Assembly (NCBI RefSeq): GCF_000023985.1
Contig: NC_013156.1
Coordinates: 1,352,363-1,416,362, forward strand
Length of the DNA stretch: 64,000 bases
Direction: 5' to 3'
Origin: Methanocaldococcus fervens AG86
GTDB taxonomy: Archaea > AGJL01 > Methanococci > Methanococcales > Methanocaldococcaceae
Under the pieces are notes generated by a model. The model had not been told where the DNA came from, ran no database searches, and saw only the letters and a program-made list of their open reading frames with translations. The translations under genes were made by a program, and so were the position numbers. Below, piece by piece: positions 56,872 to 58,149 of the stretch. The first letter of the stretch is position 1. Every line of letters starts with the position of its first letter.

Positions 56872-56943
56872 CAACCTTTTACTAAAAGGTTGATCAAAAC
56901 GGATGCATTAAGGAATGGCTTTCAGCCCTTCATAATGTCTCTT
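56872..56943 (+). repeat. Palindrome-rich mosaic repeat, copy C (minimal form)
   Basis: CAACCTTTT-ACT-AAAAGGTTG hairpin, then ATCAAAACGGATGCATT, AAGGAATGGCTTTCAGCCCTTC and ATAATGTCTCTT. It begins 3 bases after the hypD stop. It is the shortest copy and both of its ends match copy A, which has about 110 bp more in the middle. A weak look-alike hairpin (GAACTTTTTTACTAAAAGTTTC) follows at 57005-57026. Confidence 0.85.
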
Positions 56944-57080
56944 ATTTGAGCATCTAATAGAAGAATTTCCGTCGTTCTATTGTATTATTCTCTTTTATTT
57001 GATAGAACTTTTTTACTAAAAGTTTCATATCAATGGGGTAAATCCCTTATGGTGTTATTGCTTTTTTATATGCATCTAAA

Positions 57081-57160
57081 TTTATCATGATTTATCATTA
57101 TAGATTAAAGGCAATTTGTCATTATTTTTCATTAAAGACATTTATCATGATTGTTCATGA
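57081..57160. promoter_or_regulatory. Operator array: three tandem pairs of a 10-bp repeat
   Basis: Consensus TTTATCATKA. Pair 1 at 57081-57100 (TTTATCATGA, TTTATCATTA), pair 2 at 57115-57134 (TTTGTCATTA, TTTTTCATTA), pair 3 at 57141-57160 (TTTATCATGA, TTGTTCATGA). Units inside a pair are adjacent, one helical turn apart. The array ends just before the TATA box of the small gene at 57229. A fourth pair lies before tusA. Confidence 0.75.
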
Positions 57161-57167
57161 GCAAAAA

Positions 57168-57179
57168 AGAATATATATT
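57168..57179 (+). promoter_or_regulatory. TATA-box promoter of the small membrane protein gene
   Basis: AAGAATATATAT, directly downstream of operator pair 3, about 50-60 nt before the ATG at 57229. Confidence 0.6.
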
Positions 57180-57228
57180 AGTTTTTTCAATGATATAAGT
57201 GAAAACAATGAAGTAATGGGGTGATACT

Positions 57229-57399
57229 ATGAACGCAAAGATGCACTACCTACATATGGTTAATCAAGAGCTTGAAGAATTGGAGAATATAAAGAGAGAT
57301 TTAACGAGATCATACAGAGGTAGCGAAGCAACAAAATTCATGGGATATGTATTAGCTGGATTAGTTATAATATCTGCTGTTGCACCTATTTTATTCTAA
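57229..57399 (+). CDS. 56-residue tail-anchored small membrane protein, unknown
   Basis: Begins at ATG 57229 with a strong GGGGTGAT ribosome site and ends at TAA 57397-57399. Residues 1-35 are a charged helix (HMVNQELEELENIKRDL), and one membrane helix occupies about 37-55 (FMGYVLAGLVIISAVAPIL) right at the C-terminus. No known motif. Promoter, operator array and ribosome site all support it as real. The same operator repeats lie before tusA, so it may act with the sulfur-relay genes. Confidence 0.75.
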   Translation: MNAKMHYLHMVNQELEELENIKRDLTRSYRGSEATKFMGYVLAGLVIISAVAPILF

Positions 57400-57449
57400 A
57401 TTGTGAAAATTTACAGAATAAAAATAGTTTGGACTATTTTTAAGGATAA

Positions 57450-57469
57450 ATTGTCATTATCTATCATTA
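57450..57469. promoter_or_regulatory. Operator pair 4, upstream of tusA
   Basis: ATTGTCATTA followed directly by TCTATCATTA, the same tandem 10-bp unit as the array at 57081-57160. It is about 60 bp upstream of the presumed tusA TATA element (TTTTATATTT, 57531-57540). Confidence 0.65.
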
Positions 57470-57579
57470 CAAAATTAGATATTAGAAAATTTAATAACCA
57501 ATATGTAATTAAAGAATTTTCAGATTAATTTTTTATATTTTTTAAACATATTTCTATTAAAAAATTTTATGGTGAGGTT

Positions 57580-57795
57580 ATGAAAAAACTTGATGTTACT
57601 GGAGATATTTGCCCAGTTCCAGTTTTAAAAACAAAAAAAGCTTTAGAAGAATTAAATGAAGGGGAGGAGTTAGAAGTTGTTGGTGATTACAAACCAGCAT
57701 TGGAAAACATAAAAAGATTTGCTGAAAATAATGGATACACAGTAGTTTCTGCTGAAGAAACAGAAAATGGATTTAGAATTGTAATAAGAAAATAA
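57580..57795 (+). CDS. tusA: TusA/SirA-family sulfur carrier
   Basis: 71 residues with the family signature CPVPVLKTKKAL at 10-21; the first cysteine carries persulfide in TusA. LEVVGDYKPALENIKRFAENNGY completes the two-layer fold. GGTGAGGTT precedes the ATG. Followed after nine bases by a DsrE-like gene, a pairing common in sulfur transfer or sulfur-compound metabolism. Confidence 0.9.
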   Translation: MKKLDVTGDICPVPVLKTKKALEELNEGEELEVVGDYKPALENIKRFAENNGYTVVSAEETENGFRIVIRK

Positions 57796-57804
57796 GGTGA
57801 AAAA

Positions 57805-58149
57805 GTGAAATTTACAGTAATTATTACAGAAGCTCCTTATGGAAAGGAGAGAGCTTACTCAGGGTTGAGATTTGCATTAACAGCTTTATTGGAAGGGATT
57901 GATGTAAATATCTTCTTAATTGAGAACGGAGTTTATGTTGCTAAAAAGGAGCAAAATCCTTCAGAAATGCCAAACTATTCAGAGCTGTTGAAGAATGCAA
58001 TTGAGTTAGGGGCTGTTGTTAAAGCTTGTGGACCTTGCTGTAAAGCAAGAGGTTTAAAAGAAGAGGATTTAATTGAAGGAGTTCAATTAGCTACAATGCA
58101 CGACTTAGTTGCCTTTGTTAAAGAAAGTGATAACGTAGTTACATTCTAA
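57805..58149 (+). CDS. DsrE/TusD-like sulfur-relay protein
   Basis: 114 residues with the DsrE-type fold: VIITEAPYGKERAYSGLRFALTAL, VNIFLIENGVYV and the cysteine loop KACGPCCKARGL, three cysteines of which one should accept sulfur. Start is GTG after GGTGAAAAA. Probably coexpressed with tusA. Exact donor and acceptor are unknown. Stop overlaps the convergent DHH gene by four bases. Confidence 0.85.
   Translation: MKFTVIITEAPYGKERAYSGLRFALTALLEGIDVNIFLIENGVYVAKKEQNPSEMPNYSELLKNAIELGAVVKACGPCCKARGLKEEDLIEGVQLATMHDLVAFVKESDNVVTF

Follow-up and report, generated by a model that had tools for sequence, protein, structure and literature searches.

The stretch of DNA analysed here (the window) comprises 64,000 nucleotides of Methanocaldococcus fervens AG86 (NC_013156.1, positions 1,352,363 to 1,416,362), and the genes and promoter elements located in this paragraph lie on its + strand. 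A gene at 57229..57399 encodes a 56-residue protein that is predicted to be tail-anchored, with an acidic N-terminus, a D-L-x-R-(P/S)-(Y/F)-(R/T)-G motif and a single C-terminal hydrophobic segment. Its TATA box (ATATATATTA, 57171..57180) is found at the same place in the orthologues and is preceded, by our reading of the sequence, by a probable BRE (AAAAAGA, 57164..57170) whose position the orthologues keep as GCAAAAAAG. A hairpin followed by a T-rich stretch (57419..57442; fold of -8.5 kcal/mol, z of -2.6) is the likely terminator of this small gene, and the hairpin sequence is conserved in close relatives. Farther downstream are a gene of the TusA sulfurtransferase family (57580..57795; PF01206, E=6e-27) and a dsrE-family gene (57805..58149; PF02635, E=4e-30), for which a probable TATA box can be read at 57530..57539. 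The intergenic region begins, on its 5' side, with part of a dispersed intergenic repeat (56872-56950) that has 67 further matches in the genome, most of them 80-100% identical over 21-77 bp. An Rfam search of the window returned no match.

Four operator boxes of 26 bp, to which no strand is assigned, flank the small gene. Box 1, the distal one (57080..57105, ATTTATCATGATTTATCATTATAGAT), is a full palindrome without a mismatch to the 26-bp consensus and scores 30.9 bits; box 2, in the middle (57114..57139, ATTTGTCATTATTTTTCATTAAAGAC, conserved across the order as AATTTGTCATTATTTTTCATTAAA), has a degenerate right flank and scores 19.5 bits; box 3, the proximal one (57140..57165, ATTTATCATGATTGTTCATGAGCAAA, conserved across the order as CATTTATCATGATTTATCATGAGC), abuts box 2, reaches into the BRE, has its centre about 19 bp upstream of the TATA box and scores 18.4 bits; box 4 (57449..57474, AATTGTCATTATCTATCATTACAAAA) is placed on the 3' side of the small gene, about 60 bp before the TATA box of tusA, and scores 23.3 bits. 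These scores come from a matrix built on 65 sites in front of genes of the regulon, those of the small gene being left out, and the next-best place in the window reaches 4.8 bits with the same matrix. The original prediction had described the boxes as four adjacent pairs of the 10-mer TTTATCATKA, three of them upstream of the TATA box of the 56-residue membrane gene and all serving as operator of a regulator, and its placement of the pairs is borne out both by the sequence, with units at 57081/57091 (both exact), 57115/57125 (one mismatch each), 57141 (exact)/57151 and 57450/57460, and by the matrix, which ranks them first in the window. Taken singly, the 10-mer shows no enrichment in the window (49 matches with at most one mismatch, 43.7 +/- 6.5 expected). 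Across the genome (1.507 Mb, 99.9% complete), paired 10-mers with up to three mismatches give 30 strand-hits vs 6 for the reversed control, which confirms that they occur far above chance expectation, and the 26-bp palindrome gives, at the same tolerance, 22 strand-hits vs 0, in support of an operator.

The symmetry of this operator was read from sites collected by searching a 16-bp core, TMATKATTNWTMATKA, in the genus and in seven Methanococcaceae. In the columns outside this core, the 65 sites of other genes define the unit as a 26-bp inverted repeat, ATYTRTMATKATT|AATMATKAYARAT, with A-T-Y-T-R as its left and Y-A-R-A-T as its right flank. Among the 64 unique sites, positions at 9-13 bp on either side of the centre are complementary in a fraction of 0.58-0.81 (0.32-0.41 expected), and the 10-bp direct repeat is not continued into the flanks, identity at the two diagnostic columns being 0.03 and 0.09; on this palindromic flank symmetry the direct-repeat operator is rejected. 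All four boxes match the operator consensus ATYTRTMATKATTWATMATKAYARAT at 18-31 bits, and the degenerate right flanks of boxes 2 and 3 may reflect a different binding mode. The resemblance of the pairs to direct repeats arises from the inner half-sites (TMATKA, near-palindromes 10 bp apart), which contain the palindromic TCATGA. Operators of the OmpR/PhoB type are tandem direct repeats; their unit spacing of 10-11 bp is like that seen here, whereas inverted-repeat symmetry is favoured for the present operator. A cooperative regulator binding direct repeats had been proposed, and of this proposal the cooperativity is still suggested by the spacing, boxes 2 and 3 being abutted, while the unit itself is a palindrome.

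The palindrome matches in the genome (up to three mismatches) fall on about a dozen loci. They precede MnhG-, MnhC-, NuoB- and NuoD-like genes, which by homology and established knowledge we take to be Ehb-type hydrogenase operons, as well as cdhA, cdhD, the acetyl-CoA synthetase gene, cobN, a formate-transporter-type gene (focA), a gene for an HTH-CBS protein and the small-gene locus; porG carries the operator core and a weaker full site with four mismatches. The same target set is found in other Methanocaldococcus and in Methanococcaceae, i.e., in both families of Methanococcales, and is joined in the latter by cdhC, cdhB, a transporter of the acetate type (Gpr1/Fun34/YaaH) and, less strongly, the ATP synthase operon, the assignments of cdhB and ATP synthase being made by reading the sequence. 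In three genomes of Methanococcaceae (L145, L162, L224), operator copies stand before the apparent first gene of an A-type ATP synthase operon, and another genome (G002, L124:1070-1416) has a good copy at the gene of a membrane protein that is unrelated, about 99 residues long and without Pfam match. The target set is that of the autotrophic acetyl-CoA pathway together with its electron supply. The original prediction had asked whether a genome scan would find the pairs before sulfur or metal genes; apart from those at the small-gene locus, the matches nearly all precede genes of CO2 assimilation.

Within this regulon the small gene has the densest cluster of operators. Scored with the other-gene matrix, two or three boxes above 11 bits lie upstream of it in 30/30 orthologues; several genomes have only two, and in the 23 three-box promoters the spacings are 33-36 and 26-27 bp, with boxes 2 and 3 exactly 26 bp apart in all but two. 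The original prediction was to lose ground if orthologous promoters lacked the array; they have conserved it. Two side observations concern this promoter: one genome (G022) has two copies of the small gene (L155:4931-5300 and L233) with the triple operator at both, and in another (G003, L035) an insertion of about 95 bp with inverted ends TAGGACTTTCGCAG...CTGCGAAAGTCCTA separates the TATA box from the start codon. Homologues of the small protein occur in 34/36 Methanococcales genomes, and a search at the level of the phylum led to the same 36 genomes only. D24 and R27 are invariant in a 21-row alignment, within the motif D-L-x-R-P-Y-R-G or a variant of it; a Pfam search found no match to the protein, and a PDB search with its profile no convincing one.

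We regard it as likely that the four boxes are operators of an autotrophic-carbon regulon extending over the whole order and bound by a dimeric regulator, and that the array upstream of the small gene is activating. At the majority of the ehb, cdh, por, acs and satP promoters, the operator is centred about 25-50 bp downstream of the start of the TATA box and thus covers the region of the start site, which is the position of a repressor. The order is reversed, with the operator upstream of the TATA box, at cobN (centre 13-22 bp before TATA) and at the small gene (19 bp). For TrmBL1 of Pyrococcus, upstream sites are reported to activate and sites downstream of the promoter elements to repress (PMC4706686). 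On single operators downstream of TATA, the dimeric putative regulator would thus probably block RNA polymerase at most targets, while by analogy with the position rule of TrmBL1 the same regulator, filling the three-box array upstream of BRE and TATA, would most likely activate the small gene. Synthesis of the small protein would then be opposite in phase to CO2 fixation, and the protein may have its target in a partner within the membrane, e.g., Ehb. It is tempting to speculate, although we would sooner doubt than defend the full scheme, that the regulator turns CODH/ACS, Ehb and POR off and, via the triple operator, the small protein on, the latter serving as a post-translational brake on, or partner of, Ehb.

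The main alternative, plausible if on the less probable side, is repression of the small gene by the array, in which case the gene would be controlled in parallel with ehb and cdh and its product would serve Ehb or CODH/ACS as an anchor or accessory subunit. Box 3 is in contact with the BRE, and a protein bound there could cause repression by keeping out TFB or, in this alternative, TBP; moreover, the small gene shares its regulon with ehb and cdh, and membrane operons of the Ehb type make up many of the targets. However, boxes 1-3 all lie upstream of TATA at a fixed spacing, unlike the repressor position seen at most other promoters, and arrays in an upstream position are more typically activating.

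Box 4 raises the question of whether the boxes on both sides of the small gene act together. A box 3' of the small gene scores above 16 bits in 13/30 genomes of both families, with differing downstream neighbours, which would suit a DNA loop of about 350 bp closed around the gene by boxes 1-3 and box 4; yet about half of the genomes have no 3' box, and in some this box may belong to the next gene, so that we find a loop rather improbable. The original prediction had instead joined the small membrane protein to the sulfur-relay genes. Indeed, several Methanocaldococcus as well as G034/G035 have tusA-dsrE 3' of the small gene, and a direct-repeat reading of the pairs is possible; in the five genomes with tusA directly 3' of the small gene, the operator upstream of tusA scores 23.3, 27.0, 25.5, 16.5 and 20.4 bits. 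The remaining scorable tusA orthologues (about 7/30 tusA loci were left out of this scoring) have no upstream operator, all scores being at most 2.3 bits, and in two genomes with two genes between the small gene and tusA the operator remains beside the small gene. The sulfur-relay regulon is rejected on these grounds, tusA carrying the operator only where it adjoins the small gene, and the link between operator and sulfur genes appears largely incidental. Given that the targets are carbon genes, that the flanks show palindromic rather than direct symmetry and that the box keeps its place beside the small gene despite insertions, it is very unlikely that a regulator recognising direct 10-bp repeats ties the membrane protein to the tusA-dsrE sulfur relay. 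The two genes inserted between the small gene and tusA (L235:4177-5142 and L236:4142-4927) look like a toxin-antitoxin-type pair, the second protein being HEPN-like by eye. Two draft genomes yielded no detectable match to the small gene or to tusA, which is most simply explained if the shared locus has been lost or falls in a gap. As for mere resemblance of the pairs in AT-rich DNA, to which the unenriched single 10-mer might point, it is refuted by the genome-wide controls and the order-wide conservation and keeps practically no probability.

We agree with the original prediction that the regulator is not obvious in the window. Elsewhere in the genome, the leading candidate, judged from sequence, is the HTH-CBS protein, which is encoded in 35/36 genomes. 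Its promoter (L260-L289; G000:C1:544809) contains repeated ATTTATAATCAT half-sites conserved in both families, and the operator there scores at least 7 in about half of the orthologues. Domains of the CBS type are common sensors of adenosyl ligands. An XRE-type HTH protein, present in 36/36 genomes (L104/L185; G000:C1:314215), was also considered. Its promoter shows three stacked palindromes, namely a palindrome of its own (GAATAAnnTTATTC, in 18/28 promoters), the regulon operator as a weak copy only, and an NrpR-type GGAAN6TTCC, which is nearly always accompanied by the operator copy and vice versa. With its own distinct palindrome and a weak operator copy, it looks more like a target that also has NrpR-type sites than like the regulator, and we set it aside in that role; the gene is possibly a junction of carbon and nitrogen control. 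Proteomics of M. maripaludis reported POR and acetyl-CoA synthetase up under nitrogen limitation and CODH/ACS down under phosphate limitation (PMC2723118), shifts that are consistent with carbon/nitrogen control. For TrmB-family proteins, which may still qualify as the regulator, no strong operator was found in the regions inspected around their genes in the genus.

Several known archaeal systems invite comparison. TrmBL1 and the Thermococcales glycolytic motif of Pyrococcus likewise provide a palindromic operator for a central-carbon regulon, with a half-site TATCAC similar to the TATCAT found here; nevertheless, TATCAC-N5-GTGATA differs from TATCAT-N8-ATGATA, so that the present operator falls outside the TGM-type palindrome, and the TrmBL1 targets concern sugars whereas ours concern CO2 fixation. 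The NrpR regulon of Methanococcus also relies on methanogen palindromic operators, two of them in some promoters according to work cited in PMC2723118, but its operator GGAAN6TTCC differs in sequence and targets, is absent from the four boxes, and adjoins a weak regulon operator only in the xre promoter. MreA of Methanosarcina acetivorans, a TrmB-family protein, resembles the proposed regulator as a dual regulator tied to acetate/acetyl-CoA metabolism, but it belongs to a different order and no binding motif has been identified for it (PMC4158304). Finally, EnfR of Thermococcus onnurineus is a dimeric archaeal regulator on an inverted repeat at a codh cluster; its operator, however, has 36 bp and a different sequence, and the cluster is energy-yielding (PMC10570040). 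Palindromic archaeal operator regulons as such are thus known, but the present regulon seems not to have been described before, and likewise its triple array and the small protein: in the literature searched, which left subscription journals and preprints outside its scope, the motif and methanococci are not described together.

Coordinated changes of CO2-assimilation proteins have been reported without an operator or a regulator (PMC2723118), and in the literature searched the transcriptional coordination of CO2 assimilation in hydrogenotrophic methanogens, comprising CODH/ACS, Ehb, POR and acetyl-CoA synthetase, is unexplained. The present analysis supplies an operator, an order-wide list of targets and two candidate regulators. 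The small membrane protein, conserved and unannotated as it is, is a good candidate for a regulator or subunit so far missing from the carbon-fixation machinery.
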